From: Romanomermis culicivorax
Lineage: Eukaryota > Nematoda > Enoplea > Mermithida > Mermithidae
Assembly (NCBI GenBank): GCA_963922205.1
Contig: CAWUHX010000015.1
Location: forward strand, 310,001 to 374,000
Reading direction: 5' to 3'
Length of the DNA: 64,000 nucleotides
Position numbers and translations under genes: made by a program. The notes under the pieces are model-generated. The model did no database searches. It had not been told where the DNA came from and was given only the letters and a program-made list of their open reading frames with translations. This document shows, one piece after another, positions 27,201 through 59,131 of the stretch (positions are counted from its first letter, which is position 1; each line of letters opens with the position of its first letter).

Positions 27201-30200
27201 AATTTGACAGGCAATTTTCACGTAGTGAAGAACTTATAAGATATAAAAACGGGAAAATTTTTCTTGGTAACCAGGAACCCAAAATCATACTTATTCACGC
27301 TTCATTTGGATCAACCTGTGTCGATGCTAATCGATAAGTATTTAGGGCTTAACCACGTTATTGAAGGAAATTTTCGCTGGTTCTGACTGCTTATTTTCAT
27401 TGATTTGATTACTGTAGCTTACTACCATACATGCACGTGGAGGTGAGTTTGGGGGTATTGATTGACTCCCAGCAGATCCTTGCTGACCCCAGCAGATTTG
27501 ACCCTCTAACAATGATTGAAAAGTTGACGAAGGAAAATGAGAAAGAGAGAAGAGAAAATCGTCATAAAAATGAAAATGATGCTGTAGTTTAACAATTTTT
27601 CTAAGCAAAGCATACTAGATTACAAAGGAGTAACATCAAAACTTTAAAAAGTGCTGTCTAAGCAAATAATTTCACATATTTGATTAATATAGGTTGAAGA
27701 ATATGCTGCTTGGATGTTAGAAGAACTTTATAAGATATTTCTTTTCGTTATCAAGAACGAAAAGAAATTTTCTATTCCACCCACTGTCCTGGCTGACTCC
27801 CAACAGAATTTCTATGCTGTGCGTGTATGCTTACTACTTATTCTGTGTTGAAATTACTTTCATGAGATCGCTGCATTTATCATTTCAGAATAGATAGTCA
27901 AATGAGTATTGCAGTTTTCAAGATGATCTATTGAATGCATGTTTTCCTATTGTACATATGATTCAGTGATTGTTGAGATCAGTTTACATTGTTTACCGTA
28001 TTTATGCAAACTTCAGTGTAAACAAGACCTACGGGAAAAGTTACTGCTGTTATTACTCATGTTATGTTATATCGAATGCACTATAACATGTATTATTCCA
28101 GAATTTATACCTGGGGACCTTCTCGTCAGATCAACCTGCTTCGGTTTAATGGTTGACGCCACACTTGTAGACAATGGGACAAATATCTACCGTCAGAAGA
28201 GTTTACGCTAAACCATCAAACATTGACTATGCAGTCACTTCTTTCACGTTTTTTGGCACCCAATCTCAAATTAGATTCCATTTCTTGTTAAGCTGAAATG
28301 GACACGTTTGAAGGCAAACCACAGCAAATCCAGATAGTAGAAAAAACCCTGTATTTCTAGTATTGTCACAAGGTAATATAAGAAAAATTGCGAACAATGT
28401 TGATCTGCAACATTATAGTCTGTTTTCTTGAAATGCTTGTAAATAATAACGGTGATATGCAATTACTATTTTGTATTTTTACTCTTTCTGCTAAACCATA
28501 TGTCACGCAAGATTGCGTATTTGTGCGCATAGACAACTTACCTTATCAATTTTTCGAGTAAAAAATCTCATGATAGGAGCTCCGTGTGAACAATGTCGAC
28601 GACATTGCTAATTTCTGCCGTTTTTGAATTTCGTTGAAAACAGACTATATATAATATACCTCGCCTAGTAAGTCGTGGTAGACCATCTTGAAAATTTCGT
28701 AAAACCCGAATTTTCCCAAACCTTGCAAAGAATATCCAACTGCCGTCGGCGCCCATCCTTTCCCCAAAGCTCGGAATCCTTCTTCTCTGACCGTGAGTGA
28801 GAAACCCGTACCGATACCCTTATACTTCCCTGGATTAACCTTAAAAAACTTAATGAACGGAAAGAGAAGTACGATTATGGACAAACAAATAAGACACAAC
28901 AAAATGAAGCAAAGCAGAAGAAACAGAACAGAAAAGAAAAGAAAAGAAAAGAAAAGAAAAGAAAAGAAAAGAAAAGAAAAGAAAAGAAAAGAAAAGAAAA
29001 GAAAAGAAAAGAAAAGAAAAGAAAAGAAAAGAAAAGAAAAGAAAAGAAAAGAAAAGAAAAGAAAAGAAAAGAAAAGAAAAAGAAAAGAAAAGAAAAGAAA
29101 AGAAAAGAAAAGAAAAGAAAAGAAAAAGAAAAGAAAAGAAAAGAAAAGAAAAGAAAAGAAAAGAAAAGAAAAGAAAAGAAAAGAAAAGAAAAGAAAAGAA
29201 AAGAAAAGAAAAGAAAAGAAAAGAAAAGAAAAGAAAAGAAAAGAAAAGAAAAGAAAAGAAAAGAAAAGAAAAGAAAAGAAAAGAAAAGAAAAGAAAAGAA
29301 AAGAAAAGAAAAGAAAAGAAAAGAAAAGAAAAGAAAAGAAAAGAAAAGAAAAGAAAAGAAAAGAAAAGAAAAGAAAAGAAAAGAAAAGAAAAGAAAAGAA
29401 AAGAAAAGAAAAGAAAAGAAAAGAAAAGAAAAGAAAAGAAAAGAAAAAGAAAAGAAAAGAAAAGAAAAGAAAAGAAAAGAAAAGAAAAGAAAAGAAAAGA
29501 AAAGAAAAGAAAAGAAAAGAAAAGAAAAGAAAAGAAAAGAAAAGAAAAGAAAAGAAAAGAAAAGAAAAGAAAAGAAAAGAAAAGAAAAGAAAAGAAAAGA
29601 AAAGAAAAGAAAAGAAAAGAAAAGAAAAGAAAAGAAAAGAAAAGAAAAGAAACACTTACTTGAATTCGGCACTTCACTAAGTCTAGAGGCACGACTGCAG
29701 TATGAGTTAAGCCGCACGAAATAACTCCACCTAAACCGCACAAAGCAAAAAATTTGCCGGACCCGTAGTCGCAACTGGTTTCTTCTGCAAAAAACGATCA
29801 TTTCCAAAAAAGTGCCACAGGATCAATATTCACAGAACCTTTGATGACTGTGCTTAGCCTGTACAAGGGAGAATAATATTCATTGAATGCGTCCAAAAAT
29901 GTATCTAAGATGAGCCATCCGATCCACGCCCAGCAGGCCAGAACAGGCGCCATGTCTGAACTAATACTTTGGAAAATCATAGCCTGTTATCGTTGCGCTT
30001 ACGTCGGTCAATCCATAATGGCAGACTCACGGGGTTGTGGATAAATTTTCAAAGCAAATACCATACATAATAAGATTTGTATAGTTTCACAATTTTTTTG
30101 AGAAACGTGTTTAAAAAAGAAATGTTTCTCCTAACATGATATCATACCCATACAAATTATGAATTGCCTTCAGTTTTCGTATCTCTGGAGACGTGGCGTG

Positions 30201-39649: not shown

Positions 39650-39832
39650 TAGTTTATTGGAAAATGCCTCGATGGGACAAGGAAAAAGGAAAATATACTT
39701 GATGAAGGTCTTCAATGCTGAAAAAGGGATGGACAAGGTTGTAAAACGGAAGAACAAGAAGTTTCCACCAAAAAAATTCATTAAAATTCTTCACCCAAAA
39801 AAAGCAGTTAATGCAAAGAAAATAATTACAAA
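39650..39832 (+). repeat. Partial copy of the TA-flanked element, cut by the LTR element
   Basis: It starts TAGTTTATTGGAAAATGCC, continuing 'ttcaatgctgaaaaaggg' and 'aagtttccaccaaaaaaatt'. It matches, reversed, about 60570-60761. The LTR retrotransposon begins at its right edge. Confidence 0.75.
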
Positions 39833-41262
39833 TGTCACGTGCCGACGGATTTCGTCGAACGTCACGTGATTCACATCACAAATTTTTTCATTATGTTTTC
39901 CGTTATGTTTTGTGTTACAGTAATTTACATCAATTTTGCGTTTCGTTTTTATACTTTTTACATGCAATTTATGTGTGTACTTTTTATGTTTATTTCTGTT
40001 GCTTTCGCACACATTTATTTCCGTTTCGATTTATTATTTTCAATCGCACACGTAGACTACGGTATGTGCCCGCTAGTCAAGAATTTCCGTTAGAGATAAG
40101 CTCTCCGAGCTCGTCGCTGTAATTAGAGCACAACGTGCACTTCTTATCAGTAAAAACTAGCGACGTTTCACAACGTGAAACGACTAGTTGAAATTCTCAC
40201 TAGTGACGTTCCTATGTTAAGCATGGAGAGTGAAAACTCGCCCCAATGCTTAACGTTGTGAACTGGAAAATGTCTATGTGATCATAGGCATCTTCTGCAA
40301 CGATTTCCGCTGCAGAAGTTAGCTTGGGGGAGTGTTAACTCCGCCCAAGGCATACTGTAGTCTATGGAGCCCTTTAAAAGGGCATGTTTTGTGTGTTCCT
40401 GGCACTCTCTTTGAGCCTAACTGGTTTTTCGTCGTTTAGCTTCACGTCGCGTCCGCCGTCGATATATTTTATTATATTTTTATTGTCGTCAACTGCCTTG
40501 CCGTACGTCGAATAAATTACCATATTTTCGTCCCCGACCTACACATACACACATCGCCTACAGTAACCCGACCGTAGGAACCCGTCACCATCGCCGTTAG
40601 TGTAGAGACCCGTCGCCCCTCGCCGAGGAAACGTTAGTGATCGCCGCCTGCCGTTTAGCAGCCGCCGAATCCCCACGCCGAATCGCTCGGAGTTCGTTCC
40701 CACATCGCCGTCCGTAGGACCCCGCGTTTGACCCCGAACCCGTCGCCCAGCGCCGAGTAACTTGAGAAGAAGTGTCGTGAGTCTTCTCAGGGGTTATTGT
40801 TATTGAGGGTATATTTGTGGGAGTCTCCCCTAAGCTAGTTTTCCCTCGGAAGGACCCTCAGTTAAGAAAGCCCTCAGACCCTTAAGGTCAGGGGCCAATA
40901 AAGGGGATTTAGGTTAACAATCGGGTCCCCTACAGTAAGCCGTTCTCCGAATGGCACCGTCCCCCATTCCGTAGAATGAGGATTAGGGATTGACACCCCC
41001 GACCCGGCCGCGTTGTCCATTATTCTACAGCATTAACCCCAGGACAAGGCCGAGGTACACCATAGGTTTACCTGTGGTAGTACCAGCTGGGTTGGGTTCC
41101 CGAAACGAAGACCAATACTGGAGCCACCCCACGGGGTCACAGCATGTCACCTACCGTGTCATGGTCATGTTTCCTATGGGATATGGTACGGGTTTGCCCG
41201 TCAATGTGACTGATCACCACCTCTGTTTAATGTGACATGGCTCCACTTCGTTTAATGTGACA
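39833..41262 (+). repeat. 5' LTR (1,430 bp)
   Basis: The LTR carries a TATA-like TTTAAAAG (40373-40380) and AATAAA signals (40511-40516 and 40897-40902). It also has inverted hairpin sequence near 40160-40190 (CGTTTCACAACGTGAAACG). Relative to the 3' LTR it has 12 extra bases (tcaactgccttg) near 40490. Short frames within it are not genes. Confidence 0.97.
40373..40380 (+). promoter_or_regulatory. Probable TATA-like box of the LTR promoter
   Basis: TTTAAAAG lies within the palindrome GCCCTTTAAAAGGGC. It sits about 140 bp before the first AATAAA, a plausible U3/R layout. The same box is present in the 3' LTR. Confidence 0.45.
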
Positions 41263-41280
41263 TGGCGAGGCTGGAAAATC
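41263..41280 (+). promoter_or_regulatory. Primer-binding site
   Basis: TGGCGAGGCTGG begins immediately after the CA of the 5' LTR, as expected for pairing with the CCA 3' end of a tRNA. I cannot say which tRNA. Confidence 0.7.
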
Positions 41281-44200
41281 GACCTTTAAGTCTGACTCCA
41301 CAGTCCTTGGGAACGAACCTTTTACCCTTTTGAGTGAGATACCTCTTTCAATTAGGTAAATTTTCGATTTGAGTAGGGGAAACCTCCATCAGATCATGAG
41401 AATCGCCACTTGAGTGGGGAAACCTCTCTCAGGTCTGCTGATTCGCTTCCAAAGTGGGACACTGACCCTTGGGATGAAATTTTTGCCCTCATGTAAGTGG
41501 ATACGCCCGTAAGAAGGTAGACTACCCCTTAGGTCGGAATAGGCCCTTATATTCGCGCTTAACGCCAACTCAGATAGCACCGCATTTGAGTAATATTTAA
41601 TTACTGTAGGTCGGGATTTGCCCCACGCGTGATTAAATTAATGATTCTTGCGCGTAATTAACCCCTTATGAGTATAGTACATCCCGTAAGCTTTGGTTAA
41701 TCCTCTGGTATCGATTTTTCCCCAGATTTAATCCCCAAGAGTCATAACATTCCTAGAGTTGAGTAAATCGAGTATTCTGCCGTAATTCTCCTCTGAGCTT
41801 TCATTCTTTTTTCCTTTTTCTTTCCATTTTTCGTCAATTTGGGCCTCCATTCACTGCGTGTGATCGGACAGGTTACTGTAGCGCCTTAGGCCTTTTGGTT
41901 ACAGTATGGCTGCGAGTTGCACATAATCTAACTACAGTATACTTGGGTACGGGTACTTGAGTATCACAGCCCATGAGGTTTTCACAGCCCCTGAGGGTTT
42001 CGGGATCTCCGATCACGAGGTACAGTAACCCTTCCACTCTTGATTCTGGACGTCAAGTGTGGTCGTGAGTTGTTATCTGTGTCCGGTATGTGTGTCAACA
42101 CACTTTTTCAAAATTTTTCTTATCTTCACTGAGCACTAGCCAAGTTGCTCATTTTTCCGGCCAAACAAGCCAAAATTTTACTGTTGACACATATAACACC
42201 GTACTTAGCAGATCACATCGCTTATCTCTAGGGCCTCAAATTTTAATTTTATTTACTTTACTTTTTATTTCTCGGTCTTCTATGCGTAGTGTGTGACCCA
42301 ATTAAAATAACTTTTTCACCTAATAAATTTTCTTATCTCCAAAATCAACTCAATAAAAACTTATAAACCCATTTCCTTTTCTCTCTTTTTCTAAACAAAC
42401 AAATTATAAATTATCCTTTTTCCTACCAAAAAAAAACCCCAAACAAACCCAAACTTTCTCTTTTCACTTCTATTCAAATTTTTCAAAAACAAACTTTTCT
42501 TTATCGGTCACACATACGTCATAGTTGGCAAACCTTCAGTAGGTCATTCTTATTATTTTTTCACTACTGTACGGTCTCCTTTCTTCTTTTCATTTTCTAT
42601 TTCTGGGTGGTTGCAAGTGGTGAGGATGTTATCGATCGGGACCACTGACGTCAGCAACAACTACTTATTAAGTTGTTGTTATGAGGTGTTGTGTCTTGTG
42701 CGACCCCACCTCTGACGTCCGCAACTACCTCACATGCTGCTGTTGCACTGAGGCTTGACTAGCGGGGTCATGCTTCTGACGTCAGCAATGGCCGCATAGC
42801 ATGTGGCCGTTCAGGGGTTGAGGTTCTCCGTGTCCTCCCCCTGCGTCTGCAACAGCTGCATCCCTTGCTGTTGCTTTAAGGGGTGGGTGGCCCTCCGGCT
42901 CTACCTCTGACGTCAGCAATGGCAACGTAACAGGTTGTTATTGCAGGATGGTGACCGTATGGCACTGTCTTCTTGACGTCTGCAACAGTAGAGGCTCGAG
43001 TTGTTGCACTAGGATTGGTCGATTATTCCGACTTCAGTCCTTGACGTCAGCAACAGCAATGCACCGTATTGTTGTTCGCAGATGTGAGGCCTTACAAACC
43101 GCACATCTGGCGTCTGCAACAACTGCATCTCATATCATTGTCGTAGGATAACTGAGACTCAGATATTACCTGTTGACGTCAGCAACGGCGATGCTCCGTG
43201 TTGTCGTAGCAAGGTTGCTGGCCTAGGGCCCTATCTACTGATGTCCGCAATGATAAATCTCTATTCCAGTATCGGAATTAAGACTATACAGTCTTATTCT
43301 GGCGTCAGCAACGGCGATGCCCCGTATTGCCGTAAAGAGTTTGTAGCCGTAGGCTCTTACTTTTGGCGTACGTACTGCAATATGAGATTATGGCACTTAC
43401 ATCCCAGTTACCTGAGGTCAGCACCGAGTGTGGTGGTGTGTATCACATCTTTTGACGTCAGCACCGGGTTACTGTGGGTTTCCAAGATGCCACTTGAGTT
43501 CTAGGTGATGATTGTAGTATTATTTTCTCACCTACGGCTCTTGTTTTAGGGTTGTGTCTGTGTGCTACCGGTGCCTGGGAAACATCAGTAGACATACTCA
43601 CGCAACCTGAGATGCACTCGGTCCGTGGCACTGATCAAGTTGTCCGCAAGGGTAGCGGCACTGATGGATCAGCACGTGACTCCTCTTTTAAGCTTTAACT
43701 GTAGGTTCGAACGGGTTTACACTCGGCCTCAGCTGGGTTGGTTGTTTAACATACGCAACCGTTGGGCCTTTGCAGTCGGTACTGCCTGTGTCCAACAACC
43801 GCAAGGGTTGACAACCTTCCTGTAAATTTCTTATCTAAATTCTCGCATTTCTTTCTCATTTATGATCTTCTTTAGTGTCCCCACCAGAATAATTCCTCAG
43901 GAATTACGGCACAGCCACTGGTTGGGCCTAAGGTGTAAAAGACCCCTCTGTGACCATTTCTTTACACTCAAACGCCTTCGTTAGCTGGCCTAATAATGTC
44001 CGCACTAGAGTCGCCCTTAATCCTGAGTCCGCCTCCGTTGGTTTGTCCCTTAGCATAATATTACCGCTAGTCCGCCTAAGCGAAGGTGTTCGAGTCCGCC
44101 TAAACACATTACAACTAAGTCCGCCTTAGCTCCTCACTTTACACTCATTTATTCGAGACAGACTGTACCCCTGATCTCAAGATGCGTTGAGCCTAGCCTC

Positions 44201-45315
44201 GATTCATAGGAGGAAGCCTGCATTTCCCCACCTCCACCACCGGCACAGCTGGGCCAAGGACCCCCATGCCCTTTTACTGACTGAGTGTGTCAGAATAGCA
44301 CCCTGGTACCTGGTGCTCTTATATCTCAACTGGTGACCTGCGATCCTCACTTCATCTCAGTGAACGGAAACCCAGCCCCCAGCTGTATATAATACTCCTG
44401 GAGAGTTCCCGTTCTGTTCAAAACGCGCATTCCCGTTTTTGGGCACGGTTGTAGCATATACGCGAATGACGTCCTCCCGGGATCCTCCTGTCTAGTCATC
44501 ACACTTTTCAGAGTTCGCAATTGCTCCTAGTGAGTGAGGCCGATTGCGTAATAGTGCGATTCCCTTTGCGTAGTCTGGTTTGTAAACTAATTTTGTCCCT
44601 ATCTATTAGCACCCATTAAGTTTACTTTAAGTTGTCCCCCTTTACTTATTAATTCTTAAGCTACTCCATGCGCTACTCCTGGTGAGTAGGACTTTGTCGG
44701 TTACGAGCCCTCCCATATCCCAAAGTTTGTAAACTAGTACAACGGACTTAACCTCCAGATAAAATTCCCTTTTGAGCGGGTTTATCCGTACGCCCTCACG
44801 TCGGTTCCTTAATTTTATGGTTGGAGTTCCACCACTTTCTTTCAAATGTATTATACTTTTGGTTCAAATAACCGGGTCTTGCCCCATTCATCTCTAAAAA
44901 TTGGGTATACTTCTCCCTCTCTTTACACTCGGGTTATCCCCTCTTTACCTACGTAGGTGACCAGATAAATTCCCTTCTGCGTCAACCTATCTCTCCGTCT
45001 GGCTGTTCTGAGAGCTAAAACCTTGTCCTTTTCTAGCCCCATCGCTGAGTGGCCGCTAGATATTGGAAAGAACAAGCGTTACAGCCTCAACACGCCGTCG
45101 CGCAAACGATCTCGTACTTCCCGCGCTTCCTCGCCACGCGACTACAAAAGTAACTCTTACTTTACGTCTACAAAATAGAGACACCTAGACGTTCCTGTCG
45201 ACTTAGTACTAAGTTTAAACGGACAAGTGAACCCCTCTCTATTCAGTTTGATCGAATAACTTCACAGGCACGATCATCAGTCTTAGATACCTTACAGGAA
45301 GACGAACTCTCATCT
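41281..45315 (+). other. Unusually long (4-kb) retroelement leader
   Basis: No protein domain is recognisable, and stops are frequent in all frames. It holds short diverged repeats near 41330-41440 ('gagt.gggaaacctc'), the hairpin array (42646-43480), and repeated 'AGTCCGCCT' boxes at about 44020-44130. It likely carries packaging, splicing or translation signals. Confidence 0.7.
42646..43480 (+). repeat. Array of ~14 hairpin units headed by TGACGTCAGCAA
   Basis: Boxes start at 42646, 42713, 42777, 42842, 42908, 42974, 43042, 43108, 43174, 43239, 43300, (43364), 43413 and 43453. Spacing is about 66. They alternate between GTCAGCAA and GTC(T/C)GCAA types, giving a 132-bp double unit. Most units can fold into a stem that starts at GCAAY and pairs within about 30 nt, for example GCAACAGC with GCTGTTGC and GCAATGGCAAC with GTTGTTATTGC. 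Six boxes are the exact CRE palindrome TGACGTCA. Confidence 0.85.
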
Positions 45316-47657
45316 ATGAAGTCAGAAATTGATTTACCTTCACAGATTGAGAATAAGGTCCAAGCTGCATTTGAGAATGCCCTTGGACCACTCAACCAAA
45401 AGCTAGAGGCTATGAATGGCAGAAGGCACCCTCCTGTGTCCAGCTTCATGGCCCCTCCAGCCTTTTCAGGTGCTTTTGGTGAGTCCATAACGGATTTTAT
45501 ATCCCACTTGACCCGCTTCTTTACACTTCAAGGGGTAACAGAAGCGGATCATGCATATAAAATCGCGTTTTTGGAGTCTTGCCTCACAGGTCCTGCTCTG
45601 GCATCCTACCGGGACTTTAGCAGTGGTACTCCGCAGCCTACCCGCTACGAAGAGTTCACAGCTTTTCTTAGGAGAGACTTTCCAGTAGGGCGTGATTCAG
45701 ATCTGCATCAGCAGTTGATCCAGGATCGCCTGCAGAAGCCGACTGAATCCGCGATAGTCTACCTTGAGCACCTTAAGAGACTGTCCAGGGTGGCTTATCC
45801 GGATCTCGCGACTGACGTTAGGGATTCTATTATTAAACCTATCTTTCTGAGAGGGTTGAGACCAGTCCTTAGAGATAGTATTAAGTTCAGGGAGTTCACA
45901 ACTCTTGAAGAGACTCTCAAAGCAGCCTGTTACGCGGAATCACAGATTTTTCGGGATGAGATTAGGTACACTGCCCCATCTAATGCTGTTTTCTCTTCAG
46001 AACAAAGGACCGCCGACAACGTCAGGTCAATGTCGAATCAAAGGAGCACCGCTCAACGTCCGTCGGCCACGCCGTCCGACGAGGTTCGACGTTTACAATC
46101 GGAGATGGCCCGGCTCACGGCTCACGTTGCGCGACTTACGGCTCAGCAATCGGCGCCACCTTCGAGAAATTCGACGCCGTCATCGACGCCGTCGACGCGT
46201 GTCCAAACCGCCGGCGATCGCCCGTCAGGGGCACATCTACAGATGTGCTCCTACCATGGACGCTGCACCCACAACGACGCTACTTGCCGGGCGCAAAATC
46301 CCAATAGCGCCGGCCCTAGCACCGCCTCCGCCACCGGCGCCAGCCGTTGCTACTTTTGTCGAACGAGGGCGCACCCGACTGACCGATGCGACAGACCCTG
46401 CCCGCATTGTCGAAAACTACGAGTGCACCGGGCAACGGCTTGCCCCAATCGAAATTCGACACTGCCTGGTGAGACTAATTTTGGTAATTCTGATTATTCT
46501 CCTCAGGGGGCAAGTGGAAATTTTCGGAGGTATGCTAACCCAACTCCTCACGGGACAGGGAACCAATATCGGTCACCTCCACGGCAAAATAATGCTGTAG
46601 GGGTTACCGACGGCCTTCTTCACCCAGACTTATTCGACCTGGATGATGAAGTTTTGGCTGAACACCTGGCGGATCGCTCACAACTGTGTTATCCTGTCTG
46701 TGTAATCAGTATTGGTTTTTCAGCTACGGCAGTGGTTTCGGCGACCCCGTTGTCGACTTTTCCGCCGCCACCACCGAAATACGCGACGCCGGTCAACGTA
46801 AACCCGTCAGCGACACCGAAAACGACTGGCGACGTCAGCGTAATCGCGTCGTATCGACCGACGGAAGGTACAACGGCGCCACCGGCACGTGTTATCAACC
46901 AGGGACCACCGCCCGGAATTCCCACGGACTCCACGTTGGAGGTCGTCGGTCAACTGGAATCGATGAATCTGATAGGTAAACTGCCTTCTTTTTCTGAAGT
47001 TTCAAGTTCACAAAGTAGATATCTTTACAAGTCTCCGGCTTTAATGATTTCTTGCTTACAGATTCCTCATCCGTCACCGACGCGATGCGGGCTGTTTGGT
47101 CAACCGATTTGGCCAAAAAGTATCCGCACCTCCCCTGGGCGCTACTCAACGAGCCGTTCGAGGTTGAGGCGCTTACGGCCGCCGACGTCATGCTATCGGC
47201 ACCGGCGGTGTTGCGGATTTTGGGACCCGACGTCGCTCGACGGGCGCTCGAGTTTATCGCCGACGGAACTATTCGCGCCACCCCGGTGGACAAGATCCTG
47301 TTGGACGGTGAACCGTCGTCACCGGCAGTGGACGCCGTCCGCCGCGCTGTGGAAAAGGCCAGTCGCAACGTGCGGCCCACAGCAGTTGTTGCCACGTCAC
47401 CGACGACAACGACGACGGGAGCCCAAACTCTGGCGGCGATTGCACCACAGCAACCGGTCGCCAACGCCTTTGGAGAACCGTTGCCCGCCGTTCACAACGC
47501 CGTCAACGTCACCGAGGCGTCGCCATTTCCGACGGCTACCGTCCCGCGGTCCCCGAAGATTGGCGTTCTTCGAGAAGTCCACCCCGGAGGAGGCTTGGTC
47601 ATCGACTTCCCCGGAGAGGAGCCCGCGTCGTCCGACGACGACGACGTCCAAGAATGA
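45316..47657 (+). CDS. Spliced Gag (intron 46976-47061), 751 residues
   Basis: Exon 1 (45316-46975) ends ATAG; exon 2 (47062-47657) continues ATTCCTC. The join is in phase and moves from frame 1 to frame 3. Exon 2 then encodes about 198 residues of ordinary composition ('[18 protein letters not shown]', '[18 protein letters not shown]') and an acidic end 'SSDDDDVQE' before TGA. Frame 1 over the same DNA is an unusual Arg/Pro-rich string. That contrast argues the spliced frame is the selected one. Gag would form the particle; the knuckle would bind RNA. Confidence 0.7.
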
Positions 47658-50600
47658 AGCCGCCCGACGGGTGAAAAATGTAAATTTTGGTGTAAATTTG
47701 CAGACACCGTTTGTAAATATTTTGTTTGTAATAAATTGGGCCTTCGTGACACTACTGTTCTTAGGACTGAGCTCTGCAACACATGCTACTCAATACCAAT
47801 TTTGTGGTCTTTCAAGAAGCGGTCATCCACTTGAGCTACCTCAAAAAGTTGAATGCAAACCACCAAAATCTTCGTGGAGTCCACGACGCATGAACGTTAC
47901 AGTATATGTACCTATTTCTGATCCAATCACGACTAAAGCATGGAAATGTACCTTGCGGAATCGTAAGGTATGCACAAACACTGGTTTTTTCGGATCTAGG
48001 GGCATTACTGCAGACGTCGTTACTACTCAGCACCTCGCGCCTGCGGCGTGTACTCTAGCACATCGCACGAAGGTGTTTGGTTTACAAAAGCTCGTGGAAA
48101 TACGTCCTGGCTTTTATAGCACTAACCAAACACTGGAGGTGATGTACTCATGGTGCTGCAATGACGTCTGCAAGACAGTGACTAACCTTTTCATCGAGGA
48201 GGGACAGGTCGCTTCGTGGGATGGCACTACAGCTCTAAGTACCTTAGGAGATGTAGGTGGATGCAGTCCCACTGCAGGTCAATGCACTACTCTAGACGGG
48301 GTAATTGTTTGGCCTGCCACAAACTTTACAGCACAGTGCCATTATCGGCCACAAGGTAATTACACTGCGTCTGTATCAGGGAACCACATCATCATCGATG
48401 ATTTGCAAGTTGCCCTGAAGATCCCGGGAAACTCTCGCGTGTTTCGACTGTGTCCTGACCTCCGGTTGAATACAGTGCGAACGGATCAGGGTCTTCTTCT
48501 ACGCATCCACGGAAGATTTAATCTGACCCAGAGGTTATTCGGATTGGCAAAGGACTCCGTCCCTGACCCCGTCAATGCCAAACTGAATTACCTGGCTCAG
48601 CAGATCAAGGAGTCGGAGATTAACAATTTTCGATTCATGTGGCTAGAGTTGTGTTCTCACGCTCAACGCTACCTTGATCTGACTTGTCAGTTGCTTCGTT
48701 TTGACCCTACACTAGGAGCCCGGGCATTCCTTCAGAGGAATGACCTGACGGCGGAATTTACGGGTGAAGCACTGACGATATGGCCGTGTCAAAAGGTCAA
48801 CGCCACTTATGTCTATCATTCGTACCGAGTGGGAGACACCTGTTACAAGTATCTACCCGTACAGGTTGGCGGTACCATTTATTTCGCCACCCCCGGTGGC
48901 CCAGATCTCACTAAATTCAGTCCAAAGGTGCCGTGTGACCACCACTTTACAGGGATTTTCCGAAATCGCTCTGGCTGGTTTACTGAATCTGGCACGGTCC
49001 ATGTGAGCCATATTCCATTGGAGCTGTTCTGGAAGCAGCGCTTCAACGTCACTCACTTTGACGCTCCTGCGCTCTTTCATGATCAGTTGGCCATGACCCC
49101 TTCAAGTTTTGCTTTCTTTAAACAGTACGTTTACAAGACTGAGCAAATTGAAGCGGTCTTGAACCGGTTGGTAAACTATACGGCTGGTTTATCCCTACAA
49201 CCAGATACCCTGTATCAGGCGGTTGCAGGGGTAGGGACTGACATCAGAGCCTCACTGGAAGGTGTTGGTCTGGCAGCAAACCATGTGATTACTGGTCAGC
49301 AGCACAACCTCATGCAGGGCTTACAGTCTCTTTTGAGCGGACCAGTGCAGCTAATCTTTAACACTCTTATTGCCCTGGCAGTACTGGCCGGTACAGGATT
49401 TCTCATCTACGTTGGGATCTCCTATTACCTCAGCTACCGCCTGCGGAAAAGACAGGTTCTGTTTGTTAGCCAATACTCTCCGTTGAACCTCCTCCGGAAA
49501 GTTCAGCGTTGGGTAGGTTTTCATTACGTACAGAACGATGTGCCAACTCAGTTAGACAGGATCACTCCGTGTTTTGTCGTACTGGTTGACCACAAGGAAA
49601 CTCCAGCTTTCCTTGATACTGGTTGTCCACGGACTATCATTAGTCAACGCCTTCACAAAGCGCTGATCAAAGAGAGTCCGAAGGCGGCGATGGCCTTCCA
49701 GCAACATCACGACTTTAATCCATTGATGAGTATCAATGGTAAAGCCGTTCATACTCTCCTTTCAGGACCGTATGAGATAATGTTGCCTGGAACCCGTCAG
49801 CCACACACACGAGTGGATATACATCTCCATGTGTGTAAGACTACGTCTCCTTTCTGGGCACCGGTCGATCTGATTCTTGGATTGGACTTTTTAGAACAAT
49901 TCCAGAATATTACGTTTGACTACCAACAACATGTCTGTCGATTGAATGCAGTAGAACTGCCACTTCTGTTGACAGCAGCTGAGATTGATCAGATCGAACC
50001 CTGGTGGGAGAACACACGTTCACTATCAAGGGCCTTCCACAGGTCCGGGTCTCGATCACGATCAAGGACTTCGTCCCTTTCTCGGCCACCCTCGCGAGCT
50101 TCCTCCATTGCCTCATCCCGTGGGTCAACCAGAGGAAGTAGGACCTCTTCTAGACGGGCTAGTGGTCATTCCATGGCCAGGTCAGGGTCAAACTGTCCTC
50201 GACCCCCGCCTGGAAATTCTCCGATTACACTAGAGAAAGGCCGTTTTCGCGAGCCTAGTGACTCTGATGCACCTGCATCCCCTGTACTAGAGGTGCCACC
50301 ACTCTCTGATGTTGAGGTTGAATCACTAGGAGCTACTCAGAGCTCAGGAGAGAGGTCAGATCATGTACTCACTGTTCAGGTCCATCCAACTCCTGAGGCC
50401 AATCCGGAAACATCGGTTGGCTATGCTCTGGTAGGTTTACTCAGACGCACTGGCTTACCCATACCGAGGCGAACCAACGCGCCAGAGTCGAGCTTTGATG
50501 ACTCTGTACCTGACCCAGGTCATGTAGTATCAGCTTTCTACCCCACTGAGATGAGGACCCCTCATATCAAGGTTCTACTGAACAATTGGGTAGAGGCCAA

Positions 50601-51054
50601 AGCTCTAATTGATACCGGAGCTGTTTTCTCGCTCCTGGATCATAAGTTGGCGGTCCAGTTACCCGACTTGGTACTCACAGAGACTAGGGCTCGCCCCATA
50701 GCAGCCAATGGGTCCCCGATTCTACTGCTAGGCTCTGCCTATGTCACGGTGACAGTGGCTGATGTCTCTGAACGGATTCAAGTCCAGGTTCAAGAGAATT
50801 GTTCGGCTGAACTAGTCTTGGGGACGAACTTCCTCGGACGTTTCAATTGCGTCAGCTTAAGCTGGGAGAAATCCTTTCTCCAGTTCAAGGAACTTCGAGT
50901 TCCGTGTGAAGGCCTCATCCACAATCCACCTTCTGCTCGTGGGGCACTACCCTTGCAGGAGTTGATTGTCCTTGAGCCTCGCTCGCTAACACAATTCACT
51001 GCACCCGTACCTTCAAATATATGCAACTGTGCCCGAAGTAGCTTTCTTCCCTAA
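45316..51054 (+). CDS. ORF1: Gag - envelope-like glycoprotein - two retropepsin domains (unspliced)
   Basis: The frame is 1,912 codons without a stop. It starts [14 protein letters not shown], the first ATG after an in-frame TAA near 45154. Residues 1-230 are a retrotransposon Gag core ('[14 protein letters not shown]', '[16 protein letters not shown]'). A zinc knuckle of C-x2-C-x4-H-x4-C lies at 345-358, with a second Cys/His cluster at 362-376. Residues 553-794 are Arg/Pro/Ser-rich and overlap another, more protein-like frame. From about 797 comes a signal peptide, a Cys-rich ectodomain, and a membrane segment at about 1346-1374. Retropepsin-like motifs follow: DTG at 1434 with ILG at about 1520, then DTG at 1766 with VLG at about 1834, with a Ser/Arg-rich linker between. 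ORF2 overlaps its 3' end in the +1 frame. Whether it is made as one polyprotein is inferred, not shown. Confidence 0.85.
46976..47061 (+). other. 86-nt intron inside gag
   Basis: The intron starts GTAAACTGCC and ends TTTCTTGCTTACAG with a pyrimidine-rich tail. It is AT-rich while both flanks are GC-rich. Its length is not a multiple of three, so keeping or removing it selects between two downstream frames, both open. Confidence 0.75.
47704..49500 (+). other. Envelope-like glycoprotein domain within ORF1
   Basis: A hydrophobic signal-like segment (ORF1 residues about 797-824) is followed by roughly 520 residues with many cysteines and several N-x-S/T sites. A 25-30 residue membrane segment (about 1346-1374) and a short basic tail come next. 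This is the layout of a class of viral fusion glycoprotein. The cysteine pattern of the second half reminds me of chuvirus-type glycoproteins captured by some retroelements, but that is an unverified impression. It has no ATG of its own before the signal segment. A good-looking 3' splice site (aaatttgcag, ending 47703) lies exactly at its 5' edge, so a spliced envelope mRNA is an alternative to polyprotein expression. Normal gypsy envelopes follow pol; this one precedes protease. Confidence 0.7.
49560..49940 (+). other. Retropepsin-like domain 1 (ORF1)
   Basis: DTG in '[14 protein letters not shown]' and the later '[13 protein letters not shown]' are the two hallmark blocks of an aspartic retroviral protease. 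It lies directly after the membrane anchor's cytoplasmic tail. Catalytic Asp is present. Confidence 0.8.
50560..50880 (+). other. Retropepsin-like domain 2 (ORF1)
   Basis: '[14 protein letters not shown]' and '[13 protein letters not shown]' form a second complete DTG/hydrophobic-hydrophobic-G pair just upstream of ORF2. This is the position of the protease in ordinary gypsy elements, so it is the likelier Gag-Pol protease. A Ser/Arg-rich stretch (about 50030-50190) separates it from domain 1. Confidence 0.85.
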
Positions 51055-54000
51055 ACCTCTTTTGGGCCAACAACGTAATGTATACTTTGCTGGTACTGTG
51101 AGTACTGTGACCAATGGTCGCATACCCCTACAGGTAGTTAACCCAAGTACACACGCAGTGGTTCTCTACCCGCATACGACCATCGGTCATGTGCAGATGC
51201 ATACTGATTCCTTACAGGGATCGGCAGTCAAGTCTGATACCATTCTTGACCGTAAGTGGGTTGAAGCCAATGCTGTGATATCTCCAGATATCTCCTCACA
51301 GGATAAAACAGCGTTGCTCGATCTGCTGGTCGCATTTACTGACCTCTACGCGGTTGATGAAAAGGACACAGGTTCCACTGACCTCGTGCACCATGAGATC
51401 AGCACGGGTGACGCTTGCCCAGTCCGCCGTTTCCCTTACCGCACCGCGCCCAAGGAAAAGGATCTCATCATACAAGAGGTCAAAGCGCTCCAAGAGAAAG
51501 GTATTATTCGGCCTAGCACTTCTCCCTGGGCTACTAACACCGTCTTGGTTCGCAAGAAAAATGGGTCACACCGGATGTGTGTTGATTTTCGTGGTCTCAA
51601 CGAGGTCACGAAAAAGGATGTCTATCCCCTCCCACGGATTGATGATATCCTGGACACACTCAAGGGTATGAAATACTTCACTACCCTTGACCAGGCTAAC
51701 GCCTACTGGTCCATACCTATTGCCGAGGCAGACAGAGAAAAAACGGCGTTTAATACACCTATTGGACTTTACGAGTTCAACTATCTGCCTTTTGGTCTCT
51801 GCAATGCCCCTGGGACGTTTCAACGCCTCATGGACCTGCTTCTTACAGGACTGCAGTGGCGCACTGCACTGACCTATCTCGACGACATCTTGGTGTTTGG
51901 GAACTCTCACACCCAGATGCTTGAGCGCCTGACGGATGTGTTCACGCGTCTCCGTCAGGGTGGAATGAAGCTCAGACTGAGCAAGTGTAAGTTTTCGCAC
52001 TCTGAGGTAGAATATCTCGGGTACCGTATCTCACAGAAGGGGCTCGAGCCAGACAAAGTCAAATTGGCCGCCGTCCAGGATCTACCCATTCCACAAAACG
52101 CTAAAGACATCAAGTCTTTTCTTGGTCTTGTGTCTTATTATAGGCGTTTCATCCCTGGTTGCGCTCGGCTCAGCGAGCCGCTGACCAAGCTCTTACGGAA
52201 GGAAGTTACCTTCCAGTGGTCAAAACCTCAGCAAACGGCGTTCGACGAACTCCGAAGGCTGTTGTTGAACCCTCCTGTCCTGCGCCATCCGGACTTTACG
52301 AAATCCTTTATACTTCAAACTGATGCAAGCATTTCGGGGATAGGAGCAGTTCTAAGCCAGTTGGACGAGAATGGATACGACCATCCTGTTGCGTACGCCA
52401 GTAGAGGGTTAACAGCAGCTGAGAAAAACTACACTATTACGGAGTTGGAGACTCTCGCTGTTGTCCATTTCGTCAAGCACTTTCGGCCATATCTCTTTCA
52501 ACATGAGGTGGTCGTTCAGACCGACCACACTGCTGTTAAGGCTGTGTTGGAAAAACCGAACCCTTCGTCCCGGATAGCTCGGTGGGGCCTCGCGTTAGCT
52601 GAATTCAAACTGACTATTCGGCCGCGAAAAGGTCGGTCTAATGGTAATGCCGACGCATTATCACGCTTTCCCGATCCTAATTCCGTTGCCGGGGAGAGTA
52701 TTGACGATATTCCCCTATACAGACCCGAGGGAGAAGTTATGATGATCTCCGATGGTGCGCAGCGCCTGGCGAACTCATCCCAAAGGACCACCAATGGTGC
52801 GCAGCACCTGGCCAGGTCTGAGTCTTATGCAGAGATATCACAGGATGCGCAGCACCATGACCTTCTCGCAACTCAATTCGAGGATCCGGAATTAGCCTCC
52901 ATTCTTAGGTCACTAAAACCCTACGGTGATCAGAATGATGTTAATGGCTACCACCTGTTGGATAACATCCTTCAGAAGTGGACAGGCGAGTCCAACAAGA
53001 TTGTTGTCCCTCGTTCAATGGTTACTACCATTATTGAGGCTCATCATAACGACATTCTTGCTGGACACTTTGGTGCGAAACGTACCGCGCGGCTTATAGC
53101 CCGTAGGTACCACTGGCATTCCCTCAGTGCGGACGTCAAGTCCTTTTGTCAGCAGTGTGATCTTTGCCAACGGAATAAACCTGCGAGACAGAAGACCCGT
53201 GCAACTCTGAAACCGATTTCCATTACGGGTCCGTTTCATCGAGTCCGTGTCGACTGTATGGGACCAATGACCACTAGTGAAAACGGAAACCGATTCATTG
53301 TAGTTTTCATTGACTACTTTACTAAATGGGTTGAAGCTTTCGCTACTCCGGACATTACTGCGCAAACTATAGCTCGACTTTTTGTTACTCAAATTGTCTG
53401 CAGACATGGGGCACCGCAGATTCTTCAGTCTGATCGTGGTACTGATTTCACGTCCAAACTGATGACTGAAATCACTGCCATTTGTTCAACTAAGAAAATC
53501 CACTCCACCGCTTATCATCCCATGACAAACGGAGAAGTGGAAAGAGCTAACCAAACGCTAGCCACACGGTTACGTATGTATGTCCACCAAGGCCATACTG
53601 ATTGGGATGAGCACCTGCCGTATTCTGTGTTTGCTGTCAACATTAGCATGAATGAGTCGACAGGGTATTCACCCTTTGAGCTCATGTATGGTCGTACTCC
53701 CATGCTACCTGTTGATGCAGCACTCTCATTCAATCCTCCGGCCCATATCATAGATGTTTCTACTTATGATATGGAGGTCAAACGGCATTTTACCAATGCC
53801 TTGACCTTGATCCAGAGCAGAATTGAGAGATCACAGGCGGCTTATGCTAAGTCCTACGACCGCATGGCACGAGATGTCTCATACAAGGTTGGGGATCAAG
53901 TGCTCAAACTGCGCACTACTGGAAAACGTGGTCTAACGCCCAAATTATTGCCCATTTATGATGGCCCCTACTTTGTCACGAATGTGGCTTATCCTAATGT

Positions 54001-54211
54001 CACCATTCGACTTGAGACTGATCAAGAGGATACTGTGCATGTTAATCAGCTTAGACGCTACGTGTCACCAGCTCAGCCTACAGAAAAAGAGGAGATACCT
54101 TCCACTTCCCAGGTCATCGAGACGGCACCTCTGTTGATCCCGTCAACAAATAGAGATTTTACACAAGATCTCATTGACCCACATCTTGATGCGGAGGTCA
54201 CCGACCCGTAA
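50990..54211 (+). CDS. ORF2: reverse transcriptase - RNase H - integrase
   Basis: The frame is open from 50990 (after TAA) to TAA at 54209-54211. It has no early ATG (a GTG lies at 51029) and overlaps ORF1 by 65 nt in the +1 frame, so it is probably translated by frameshifting. Numbering from 51029, RT motifs include 'DQANAYWSIP' (about 221) and YLDD (283-286). RNase H begins near 'FILQTDASISG' (Asp 432). The integrase zinc region HHCC is at about 672-713, and catalytic D742, D802 and E838 have the D-D-35-E spacing. A GPY-like region ('PIYDGPYFVTNV') follows. No chromodomain is seen. All catalytic residues are present. Confidence 0.96.
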   Translation, partial: HNSLHPYLQIYATVPEVAFFPKPLLGQQRNVYFAGTVSTVTNGRIPLQVVNPSTHAVVLYPHTTIGHVQMHTDSLQGSAVKSDTILDRKWVEANAVISPDISSQDKTALLDLLVAFTDLYAVDEKDTGSTDLVHHEISTGDACPVRRFPYRTAPKEKDLIIQEVKALQEKGIIRPSTSPWATNTVLVRKKNGSHRMCVDFRGLNEVTKKDVYPLPRIDDILDTLKGMKYFTTLDQANAYWSIPIAEADREKTAFNTPIGLYEFNYLPFGLCNAPGTFQRLMDLLLTGLQWRTALTYLDDILVFGNSHTQMLERLTDVFTRLRQGGMKLRLSKCKFSHSEVEYLGYRISQKGLEPDKVKLAAVQDLPIPQNAKDIKSFLGLVSYYRRFIPGCARLSEPLTKLLRKEVTFQWSKPQQTAFDELRRLLLNPPVLRHPDFTKSFILQTDASISGIGAVLSQLDENGYDHPVAYASRGLTAAEKNYTITELETLAVVHFVKHFRPYLFQHEVVVQTDHTAVKAVLEKPNPSSRIARWGLALAEFKLTIRPRKGRSNGNADALSRFPDPNSVAGESIDDIPLYRPEGEVMMISDGAQRLANSSQRTTNGAQHLARSESYAEISQDAQHHDLLATQFEDPELASILRSLKPYGDQNDVNGYHLLDNILQKWTGESNKIVVPRSMVTTIIEAHHNDILAGHFGAKRTARLIARRYHWHSLSADVKSFCQQCDLCQRNKPARQKTRATLKPISITGPFHRVRVDCMGPMTTSENGNRFIVVFIDYFTKWVEAFATPDITAQTIARLFVTQIVCRHGAPQILQSDRGTDFTSKLMTEITAICSTKKIHSTAYHPMTNGEVERANQTLATRLRMYVHQGHTDWDEHLPYSVFAVNISMNESTGYSPFELMYGRTPMLPVDAALSFNPPAHIIDVSTYDMEVKRHFTNALTLIQSRIERSQAAYAKSYDRMARDVSYKVGDQVLKLRTTGKRGLTPKLLPIYDGPYFVTNVAYPNVTIRLETDQEDTVHVNQLRRYVSPAQPTEKEEIPSTSQVIETAPLLIPSTNRDFTQDLIDPHLDAEVTDP

Positions 54212-54671
54212 TCAAGTAGCTCTTCTCTTCTTTACTTACGGACGGGGTCGTCCTTTTTCGAAGGACCGCCGTGCCCCTCACAAAATACCCACTTCTGTTC
54301 CAAGCTGGAATAGCAGTGTAAAGAAGAGAATGAGCAGCGATCAATGCATCTAAACTAGGGTATTGCCTCACATTGCAGGCGCATCCATGCGATAGCCTAT
54401 ATCTCGCCTCTAAAATTTTTCTCGTAGTCTCGTTTCAGATTTCACACATCAACTGACAATTGGCAACTTCAACGAAGGGATCAAATGACGTCAGCAACTT
54501 CACGCATCTCCGATGGACGTCAGCAACTCCACGCAACATTGACACAATTCCACAAACCAGAACATACCGAAAAACCACTGAACCAGCAACCGCTCGCCGC
54601 CACCCTCACCTGAACGTTTGACCGTCGCAGCCGACACAAGGACGAGGACGCCCTTTTTCGAAGGACCGCCG
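54212..54671 (+). other. 3' untranslated region of the retroelement
   Basis: It contains two more GACGTCAGCAAC boxes (54487 and 54515), the same box that heads the leader hairpins. A duplicated 'TTTTTCGAAGGACCGCCGTG' lies just after ORF2 (54256) and again ending at the start of the 3' LTR (54654). No ordinary polypurine tract precedes the LTR. Confidence 0.75.
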
Positions 54672-56089
54672 TGTCACGTGCCGACGGATTTCGTCGAACG
54701 TCACGTGATTCACATCACAAATTTTTTCATTATGTTTTCCGTTATGTTTTGTGTTACAGTAATTTACATCAATTTTGCGTTTCGTTTTTATACTTTTTAC
54801 ATGCAATTTATGTGTGTACTTTTTATGTTTATTTCTGTTGCTTTCGCACACATTTATTTCCGTTTCGACTTATTATTTTCAATCGCACACGTAGACTACG
54901 GTATGTGCCCGCTAGTCAAGAATTTCCGTTGGAGATAAGCTCTCCGAGCTCATCGCTGTAATTAGAGCACAACGTGCACTTCTTATCAGTAAAAACTAGC
55001 GACGTTTCACAACGTGAAACGACTAGTTGAAATTCTCACTAGTGACGTTCCTATGTTAAGCATGGAGAGTGAAAACTCGCCCCAATGCTTAACGTTGTGA
55101 ACTGGAAAATGTCTATGTGATCATAGGCATCTTCTGCAACGATTTCCGCTGCAGAAGTTAGCTTGGGGGAGTGTTAACTCCGCCCAAGGCATACTGTAGT
55201 CTATGGAGCCCTTTAAAAGGGCATGTTTTGTGTGTTCCTGGCACTCTCTTTGAGCCTAACTGGTTTTTCGTCGTTTAGCTTCACGTCGCGTCCGCCGTCG
55301 ATATATTTTATTATATTTTTATTGTCGCCGTACGTCGAATAAATTAACATATTTTCGTCCCCGACCTACACATACACACATCGCCTACAGTAACCCGACC
55401 GTAGGAACCCGTCACCGTCGCCGTTAGTGTAGAGACCCGTCGCCCCTCGCCGAGGAAACGTTAGTGATCGCCGCCTGCCGTTTAGCAGCCGCCGAATACC
55501 CACGCCGAATCGCTCGGAGTTCGTTCCCACATCGCCGTCCGTAGGACCCCGCGTTTGACCCCGAACCCGTCGCCCAGCGCCGAGTAACTTGAGAAGAAGT
55601 GTTGTGAGTCTTCTCAGGGGTTATTGTTATTGAGGGTATATTTGTGGGAGTCTCCCCTAAGCTAGTTTTCCCTCGGAAGGACCCTCAGTTAAGAAAGCCC
55701 TCCGACCCTTGAGGTCAGGGGCCAATAAAGGGGATTTAGGTTAACAATCGGGTCCCCTACAGTAAGCCGTTCTCCGAATGGCACCGTCCCCCATTCCGTA
55801 GAATGAGGATTAGGGATTGACACCCCCGACCCGGCCGCGTTGTCCATTATTCTACAGCATTAACCCCAGGACAAGGCCGAGGTACACCATAGGTTTACCT
55901 GTGGTAGTACCAGCTGGGTTGGGTTCCCGAAACGAAGACCAATACTGGAGCCACCCCACGGGGTCACAGCATGTCACCTACCGTGTCATGGCCATGTTTC
56001 CTATGGGATATGGTACGGGTTTGCCCGTCAATGTGACTGATCACCACCTCTGTTTAATGTGACATGGCTCCACTTCGTTTAATGTGACA
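54672..56089 (+). repeat. 3' LTR (1,418 bp)
   Basis: The sequence is nearly identical to 39833-41262, with the same TGTCAC...GTGACA ends. The target duplication CAAA follows at 56090-56093. Confidence 0.97.
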
Positions 56090-56159
56090 CAAAGGAAAAT
56101 ATTATAAGGTAAAGATGGAAATGTGAAGGAAATGTTATTGCATTCTCTATTGCTCGTTT

Positions 56160-57089: not shown

Positions 57090-59131
57090 AATATACACGC
57101 GTCAAATCCAGATTTAAGACAGATTTCTGAGAGATTCTACCTTCTGCCCCACTGACCTATGATAATTTGATAATTACCAATATCTGTAAAAGAGAAGTAG
57201 TTTTACATACTGAGTATCGTGACAGCATTTATTCCGCATAATAATCAAAATTCGCATTCAAAGTTTGGAATTTTTGCATTTTTTGGCGATCGTCGGTCTG
57301 TACATGTGTATCGAAATATATCACAGCTCAGAAAAGACGTGACTCTGACTCCAACTGTACATGCATGCATGCAGGAGATCACGCTCTATATTCAGGCATG
57401 AAAAACATTTTCTAAAACTTTACTTTACACTTTTTATTCCATTTTAAAGTGTCAAAATGGAAGTTGAAATTAACCGAAAAAGACCAATGTGGCCTTCTTT
57501 GGGCACCTTCCCACAGGATGCCGCAAAATTTTTTTCTTGATTTCTGTAGCCACAAATGTCTGACATATTGTCTTAAAATTTCAATCAAATTAATGTACCG
57601 TTTTGGGTGCTGTAGGTGTCTGCACATTCTGAAAGTTAACACAAAAATGCTAATTTATTTTAGTAAATATGTCATCAACGAGATGCAGGAAAAACTCAAA
57701 ACGTTCAGATTATAAAGAAAAGATGTGAGCCGAATCACTCGTAAAATTTCATCGATTAATTTACAATGGTTGCGCAACAGGATGCCTCAGAAAAGATGCA
57801 ACAAAAATTTATCTTTTCAGTAATTTGACCGGAAAAAATTCGAAGCTGCGAGTTTAATGTTACAAAATTAATGTCGGCTGTCTGACTCCGCCTATGTTAT
57901 AAGCTGTGCCAAAGTGCTCTACAGTTGAAGGCACGTTGTTCCACACCACGTGACGTTAGCATGACGAAAATAGAGCAAATGATAGTAGATTGCAGTGCCC
58001 TTTCAACAAAGCAAAGAGTATCCGAATACCTCTTGCCGTTTTTCTGTAAATGGATTGCAAACAATCATTCGATTTTTGAAATTCAATCAAATTTTTCGAA
58101 GTTGTCGATTTTTCGTTTGAAGCACTTTGTTCAGAAACCATCAAACCTAGATCAATGAAAATTTACCACGACTTCAAGCCACATATTTTTTCATAATAAC
58201 GCATCCTGTGTTTCCATAACTTTATTGATGGGACATTTATCCAGATTCAAAAACGTATTTGAATAACAGTATGCAAACGTCTACAGCTGCTGAAACGGTA
58301 CACGATCATGGGATGTTACTTTCGCAGCTACTGTAGGAATGTATGTACTAAAGAATAAAAAGATAAAATTCCTGGGCATCATGGTTGAAGCTGATCCGGA
58401 GTGCCCATAAACAGGATTTTTCTTCTATTTGTTTCTCATTTTCGACAGTTTAAACTTTTTTTGCAGAGTGTAAAATGTTCGTTTGTGAAACAATTAGTAC
58501 ATCAAACTATAGTCTGTTACTTATTTGATAATTCTATAGTACAGATAATAAACGTATCACATGTGCTAGACAAGGGCCACCTGGAAAATGCAGTGACTTC
58601 TGAGTGATTTCCATGACTATGCCTTCTTCAGAGTTGTGCAGCTCCCCAAACGGCACAAAAATTTTGATAAAAATGTTATCAATACAATAAGAATGCACTA
58701 GCTATAAAATAAGAAAATAAAATTCTGCGGCATCCGATGGGAAGGTGCTCGGGAGTGCTCACAAGCAAAATTTTTCTAATTTTCACGGTTCTTTTTTGAC
58801 CTTTTAAACTCTCTAATGTGTAATGTGCAAAAATATTACATCAAAAGATAGCTTATTCTCTCTTGTGTAAAACGAATATACATTTATCGAATGAGATCAA
58901 TCCATTCGAGAAATATCGCTTGGCTAGCAAGACTACTGAAAAATGCCAAAAATACAATTTTCCAAATTTTGCATACTGTAGGGGTGTGAATTTTCGTTTT
59001 CAAGCAAAACGAATAATAACATGAAACTCAGCGCACGAAACTACCCTCAATAACTCATTTTGAGATATGGTTAATTTTCAAGTTATCAGAGTGAAGGTAG
59101 AACTTCTTAGAAATCGTGTCTCAAGTACGCA
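57090..59131. mobile_element. Second, shorter copy of the inverted-repeat element
   Basis: The left half (from 'agacagatttctgagagattctac', 57117) and right half (58280-59120, with 'cagctactgtaggaatgtatg', 'gaaggtgctcgggagtgc' and 'gttatcagagtgaaggtagaac') are arms of the same family as 17385-18530 and 21045-22205. The centre (about 57700-58270) lacks the LTD-like gene. Divergence is greater than between the arms of the first copy. Confidence 0.65.

Follow-up and report, generated by a model that had tools for sequence, protein, structure and literature searches.

The 64,000-nucleotide window analysed here lies on contig CAWUHX010000015.1 of the mermithid nematode Romanomermis culicivorax (positions 310,001 to 374,000) and carries, on its forward strand, a retroelement of 16.3 kb with long terminal repeats (LTRs) of 1.4 kb. 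A 4-bp target site duplication, CAAA, could be read directly on both sides (39829–39832 and 56090–56093). The 5′ LTR (39833–41262) has TG...CA termini and 98.46% identity with the 3′ LTR (54672–56089, placed by the match of the LTR pair), and is directly followed by a putative primer binding site beginning with TGG (41263–41274) and by a 4-kb leader (41275–45315), in which a stop-free scan revealed no long open reading frame (ORF), the longest stop-free piece wholly within it being 138 codons. Behind the leader, an ORF of 1,912 amino acids starts with ATG and runs in frame 1 from 45316 to 51054. An earlier note, made from the letters alone, had described this ORF as Gag, a signal peptide, a Cys-rich ectodomain, a membrane anchor and two DTG protease domains fused in one frame, and this observation is confirmed by the ORF, its domains and the selection acting on it, save that about 200 codons (47062–47657) are selected in frame 3 and that the end at 51054 is specific to this copy. 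Retroviruses and env-bearing LTR elements are expected to carry env after pol and to express it from its own spliced RNA, apart from Gag-Pol.

Gag occupies 45316–46975 in frame 1 and comprises a Ty3-type capsid (about 45484–45951; Ty3_capsid at residues 57–212 by Pfam, 5.6e-7, narrowly above the cut-off with 29.6 bits vs 29.1), Cys/His knuckles and a Pro-rich tail. Between gag and the envelope lie a predicted intron (46976–47061), an exon that we call X (47062–47657) and a short frame-1 stretch (47658–47703) ending in TTTGCAG, a possible splice acceptor. The predicted internal signal peptide of Env (47704–47790), its ectodomain (47791–49329) and its membrane anchor with a basic flank (49336–49419) follow. 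A first aspartyl protease-like domain with DTG (49546–49995) and an RS-rich linker (49996–50520), both with approximate limits, precede a second DTG protease domain (50572–50841), and pol (51029–54211) encodes reverse transcriptase (about 51548–52030), RNase H (about 52217–52606) and integrase with H2C2 and rve domains (about 53006–53521). The second protease is clear in Pfam (gag-asp_proteas, residues 1753–1842, 2.5e-9); the first is weak when taken alone (RVP, residues 1418–1445, E 0.083), and its counterpart in the related protein P0002 matched RVP at 8.9e-5 (residues 1360–1454). By eye, P0002 has about three tandem protease domains (1360–1867), one with DIH replacing DTG, where the window element has two.

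By its domain order, with the protease at residues 1753–1842 of the first ORF followed by RVT_1, RNase H, Integrase_H2C2 and rve in the pol ORF (Pfam), and by its TG...CA ends with a duplication within the 4–6 bp of that group, the element is classed as a Ty3/Gypsy-type endogenous retroelement. No BEL/Pao model was among the Pfam matches up to E 1.

Copies, reading frames and exon X

Querying the window's own assembly (359 Mb) with the env part returned at least 68 scored copies, the window included, with 97–100% identity; the genome searches score the best candidates only, and copy counts are accordingly lower bounds. The matched env part is stop-free in 48 of the 68 scored copies. The earlier note had proposed looking among other copies for a conserved gag-env-pro order and open frame, and both were found: the order is shared, and in 13 of the 68 the stop-free match lies in a stop-to-stop frame of 3,018 codons, which, judged from its length, reaches the end of pol. 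Because of these 13 copies, the end at 51054 is taken as peculiar to the window copy, in which pol continues in another frame from 51029.

Codon-position variants were counted in 40 of the 67 other copies, some of them partial, aligned to the window over 45216–51120, and ratios of nonsynonymous to synonymous change (dN/dS) were obtained for common variants (seen in at least three copies) and over all variants, most of which probably arose after insertion. For common variants, frame-1 dN/dS was 0.02 in gag (45316–46200), 0.18 at 46201–46722, 0.51 in the gag tail (46729–46974), 0.05 in env, 0.04 in the first protease domain, 0.10 in the RS linker and 0.07 in the second protease domain; across the env-protease junction (49330–49560) it was 0.16, with 11 silent vs 4 changing variants. 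Over all variants, gag 45316–46200 gave 0.28, env 0.29 and the signal segment (47704–47790), which has few common variants, 0.32. Gag, env, both protease domains, the RS linker and the junction of env with the protease are all under purifying selection in frame 1.

The earlier note had missed a change of coding frame directly ahead of the signal peptide. For common variants at 47064–47654, dN/dS was 1.25 in frame 1 vs 0.21 in frame 3, and frame 1 was rejected as the protein of this stretch; the roughly 200 codons before env (47062–47657) are coded in frame 3, which ends with TGA at 47655–47657. Decay of CpG sites was likewise rejected as the source of the codon-position signal, given that frame 3 of X keeps a dN/dS of 0.10 among common variants when CpG changes are excluded (10 variants).

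X is separated from gag by the 86-nucleotide segment predicted to be an intron, which has GT...TTACAG ends, is low in G+C and is also open in frame 1; its excision joins frame 1 exactly to frame 3. Of 39 readable copies, 38 retain the GT, and all 40 copies retain both the AG and the terminal TGA of X. A sister family, L052, 72–76% identical to the window element in the aligned pieces, carries an 86-nucleotide GT/AG segment at the same place, and its X protein is 64% identical to that of the window over 197 aligned codons. Comparison of the two across X gave dN/dS of 0.132 in frame 3 and 1.186 in frame 1, and frame 1 is open in both. When the codons were shuffled synonymously so as to keep the X protein (20,000 trials each), frame 1 stayed open in 0.55% of trials for the window and 0.98% for L052; because the two sequences have a common ancestor, these tests are only partly independent, but 69% of the silent sites differ. 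Because openness is rare in such shuffles, we read frame 1 across X as kept stop-free by selection while its residues are unselected. The sequence of the stretch between gag and env shows that it codes for a selected frame-3 protein, X, and that frame 1 stays a stop-free linker there. L044 was tried as an intron-less sister copy and rejected, as 84 of the 86 nucleotides are missing and no clean splice product results. Comparison of X with the spacers of six relatives revealed no convincing homology.

The envelope and its predicted topology

Pfam places Monjiviricetes_fusion (PF24664) at residues 1086–1234 (48571–49017) with 4.4e-16, above the cut-off; matches to BDV_G (Borna G) and Glycoprotein_B fall below their cut-offs, and among matches up to E 1 the Baculovirus F-type envelope did not appear, PF24664 being found instead. 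A profile of the ectodomain core built from nine sequences gave 50 matches in PDB at E up to 1, of which 46 bear the name glycoprotein B, with the best E of 9.9e-5, and the others ORF8, GP110 and BALF4 (twice); a profile of two sequences reached glycoprotein B at 0.16 only. The profile searches support the assignment of the envelope as a probable class III fusogen, resembling those of chuviruses and mononegaviruses and herpesvirus glycoprotein B. The ectodomain is richer in Cys and in N-glycosylation sites, with 1.75 of the latter per 100 residues vs 0.21 over the remainder of the frame.

Hydrophobic segments stand at residues 800–818 and 1339–1357, where the signal peptide and anchor proposed in the earlier note belong, and a weaker third lies in the gag tail (457–475). 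Upstream of the hydrophobic core of the signal peptide, frame 1 has no ATG, either in the window from 47062 on or, from 47659 on, in the 40 copies. An ATG inside the core is present in 28 of 40 copies, and a start there would cut away most of it. With segment limits set by hand, the net charge is +2 to +6 before the signal and −1 to +1 after it in 6 of 6 sequences, and −1 to +1 before the anchor and +2 to +6 after it in 8 of 8 (the window and seven relatives). From these flanking charges, Gag and Pol are both predicted to be cytosolic. A 2A-like NPGP motif is absent from the eight relatives checked.

Relatives in the same genome and elsewhere

The placement of env between gag and protease in one frame is not a one-off and recurs in other loci of this genome and in proteins of other contigs. 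A search of the same genome with P0001 returned at least 81 further scored env matches with 37–41% identity, 40 of them within frames that run for at least 2,400 codons without a stop. Six loci were picked for differing frame length, without formal clustering, and their domains were read by eye, the gag-env part in six and the env-reverse transcriptase part in five. Gag knuckles, spacer, signal and env share one stop-free frame after the gag start in all six, and env, anchor, protease and reverse transcriptase share one frame in all five. Two loci, L057 and L059, show by eye DCG where the protease DTG or DSG is expected. Over the two genome searches there were 149 scored env matches, many nearly identical within a family, which suggests recent activity of several families.

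Proteins in the length range of the ORF were also searched with its env region, giving five matches (P0002–P0006), all with env and reverse transcriptase by Pfam. These proteins come from short jgi and lgn contigs, probably metagenomes, and gag, env, protease and pol stand in a single protein in P0002, P0004, P0005 and P0006. In all, five proteins of other contigs (2,338–2,973 amino acids) have the gag-env-pro-pol plan by Pfam and BLAST. Between gag and env, P0004 (500–555) and P0005 (419–475) have RRM_1, an RNA recognition motif, at the place of X in the window element. By sequence, several diverged elements have gag, env, protease and pol in a single frame.

With the reverse transcriptase-integrase part of P0002 as query, 120 of 1,610 matches were listed, and the env model was present in 3 of these 120 (P0002, P0054 and P0097) and lacking in 117. 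P0097 is complete and P0054 begins within env. Among the 117 listed matches without env, P0051, which has no ectodomain, is 60% identical to P0002, and the others are at most 48% identical, mostly named arachnid, algal and fish proteins. Identity to the window over the reverse transcriptase-integrase part is 61% for P0002, 57% for P0051, 56% for P0054, 52% for P0097, 42% for P0004 and 41% for P0006; P0003 is 52% identical over a shorter portion of it. In a quick tree without bootstrap of 30 rows (nine lineage members and 21 others after thinning, with no named Gypsy reference clades and with some long branches), the window, P0002–P0005, P0051, P0054 and P0097 form one group (Shimodaira-Hasegawa-like approximate likelihood ratio test, SH-aLRT, 98), and P0006 falls outside with weak support. 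Because P0051 falls inside the env-bearing group, it has most likely lost its ectodomain. P0051 retains a pair of in-frame hydrophobic segments (513–586), separated by about 40 residues. The earlier note had named sister copies without env, or with env 3′ of pol, as the mark of a one-off rearrangement; the former exists in P0051 and is read as a loss, and of the latter no copy was seen, although no search was aimed at such copies.

A scan of the window for Rfam families and tRNAs returned nothing, nematode spliced leader 1 (SL1) had no match allowing up to two mismatches, and a search of viral contigs and phage records gave no relatives. Two copies of a 22-base sequence with a hairpin-like core (CCTTTTTCGAAGG) are present, at 54252–54273 and at 54652–54673, and the second runs into the beginning of the 3′ LTR. 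Long ORFs on both strands at 28918–29652 overlie an (AAGAA)n array of about 735 bases, and inverted repeats of 1.1 kb (17419–18530 and 21040–22151, 95% identical), with a third copy of about 80% identity at 58313–59088, perhaps represent another mobile element.

Known systems, rival explanations and a proposed model of expression

Cer1 of C. elegans, also Ty3/Gypsy, has a genomic RNA without a stop between gag and pol, and its spliced message, which encodes CERV, includes an exon read in a frame of its own; CERV is required for export of the unspliced RNA (PMC10309623). The window element has the sequence signature of a similar plan, an uninterrupted gag-pol and a predicted spliced message with an exon outside the polyprotein frame, but the extra ORF of Cer1 lies 3′ of pol and is not envelope-like (PMC10309623), whereas the window element has a probable class III envelope between gag and protease. 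Capture of a chuvirus-type glycoprotein by an LTR element is shared with Anakin, the mosquito elements with a chuvirus glycoprotein; Anakin is BEL/Pao, however (PMC7642597), and the window element combines a Ty3 capsid with RVT_1, RT_RNaseH and Integrase_H2C2. The same source describes an envelope-like protein downstream of the polyprotein in Roo, Tas and Cer-7 (PMC7642597), and a 2023 follow-up reports no clear case of capture by Gypsy (PMC10084718).

Gypsy elements are described with GAG, POL and ENV in tandem and with mention of type III fusion glycoproteins; errantiviruses and env-carrying gypsy elements share with the window element a gypsy pol and an envelope, in some cases a type III fusogen (PMC13172572). 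Unlike theirs, the env of the window stands before the protease and in the same frame, not as an ORF of its own 3′ of pol. Env-like genes in a survey of bdelloid rotifers are likewise ORF3 downstream of pol (PMC5408684). In the single polyprotein of hepatitis C virus, the end of the capsid protein at the core-E1 junction is the signal peptide of the envelope protein that follows (PMC5402940), although that positive-strand RNA virus has no retroelement enzymes behind its envelope. In the literature searched, with partial coverage, no LTR element of gag-env-pol order was found. Chuvirus-type or type III envelopes in LTR elements are already known, and what appears to set this element apart is the gag-env-pro-pol order in one frame.

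The earlier note had offered two interpretations, a membrane-threading polyprotein or separation of the products by splicing. The shared plan supports the reading of the earlier note, and both of its alternatives may apply, frame 1 being kept open while an 86-nucleotide intron leads to an alternate-frame product. We lean, with some reserve, to a scheme in which unspliced RNA yields a membrane-threaded Gag-Env-Pro-Pol polyprotein and spliced RNA an alternate-frame protein. Translation of the unspliced RNA would give Gag-X′-Env-Pro-Pol, X′ being the frame-1 linker; the internal signal peptide would insert the chain into the endoplasmic reticulum with the ectodomain in the lumen, the anchor would return Pro-Pol to the cytosol, and signal peptidase and the element's own protease would separate the parts. 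The spliced RNA would be translated into an X-containing protein, either Gag-X or X on another leader, and the choice between the products would be made by splicing, not by ribosomal frameshifting. As a guess, X might act as CERV does in Cer1 and export the unspliced RNA.

A number of observations weigh against this scheme, in which splicing, signal cleavage and topology are predictions from sequence. The intron donor is weak at +5 (GTAAAC). Of seven families, two showed the intron with a frame-3 X; other stop-free frames are present in L049 and L050, and L051, L053 and L054 have no stop-free alternative frame of at least 90 codons. Over all variants, frame-3 dN/dS of X is 0.73 (0.49 without CpG changes), which is mild constraint only, and the gag tail (46729–46974) is hardly constrained in any frame (frame 1, 0.96). 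Frame-1 stops occur within X in 8 of 40 copies, and frame-3 stops in none. At each of the six frame-1 stop sites the window reads CGA, and in the two cases where a pair of copies has a stop at a common site, the pair has no further rare variant in common; on this ground the stops were not accepted as proof of an unused frame 1, and they look like decay after insertion, with the shared ones apparently recurrent. On the side of topology, of six ectodomains measured that of P0006 has no enrichment of N-glycosylation sites, the segments of P0051 break the charge pattern (the first with −2 before and +4 after, the second with +3 and +4), and a further hydrophobic segment precedes the signal in P0004, P0005 and P0097. 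Finally, P0003 begins at the ectodomain, after the signal peptide, though its contig extends further, and L049, L053, P0004 and P0005 have Met directly before the signal peptide, because of which Env may instead arise by internal initiation or from a separate message.

Such a message would carry Env-Pro-Pol by itself, a leader exon with an ATG being joined at the acceptor at 47703 or translation starting internally, so that Env-Pol would not be attached to Gag, and Gag-X would come from another message. Besides the start of P0003 and the Met residues, the acceptor-like TTTGCAG stands in phase 0 exactly before the signal peptide, with its last G kept in 36 of 40 copies, and Env-Pro is continuous and selected. 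We nevertheless regard this explanation as unlikely: a separate Env-Pol message needs neither a frame 1 held open through X against the odds in two families nor Gag and Env in one frame at all six other loci and in five proteins of other contigs, and no leader exon was identified in the 4-kb leader, which was scanned for stop-free pieces only. The conserved intron-like segment makes splicing in this region plausible, and Env might be an alternative exon, removed by splicing to give a Gag-Pro-Pol message and expressed separately. This seems improbable, however, with Env-to-protease stop-free in the window, in five other loci and in seven relatives (P0002–P0006, P0054 and P0097), and with the Env-protease junction under frame-1 selection in the window family.

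Frame 3, being the −1 frame of frame 1 and open from 47019, could in principle be entered by −1 ribosomal frameshifting in place of splicing. Inspection by eye of 47019–47061 revealed no XXXYYYZ heptamer in frame 1, and the segment is intron-like in its 86 nucleotides in both families, its GT/AG ends and its low G+C; frameshifting into X is hence very improbable. A one-off rearrangement or assembly artefact is contradicted by the 68 scored copies, by other families in the same genome and by the proteins of other contigs, and can practically be set aside.

Returning to the scheme of one polyprotein with an intron-governed X, we propose more tentatively, and with rather more doubt than belief, that it characterizes a widespread LTR lineage, which would make a single membrane-threaded Gag-Env-Pro-Pol, use the cytoplasmic tail of a class III Env to carry Pol into particles, and set the balance of its products by retention or removal of an intron around an alternate-frame exon instead of by ribosomal frameshifting. 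If translation proceeds as the sequence suggests, Gag, envelope and enzymes would be coupled one to one through the membrane, and a polyprotein in the style of positive-strand RNA viruses would exist in a reverse-transcribing element. The overlapping alternate-frame exon would be a further case beside Cer1 in which the unspliced frame is kept open while splice signals are carried, and the plan as a whole points to an unusual way of building virus-like particles.

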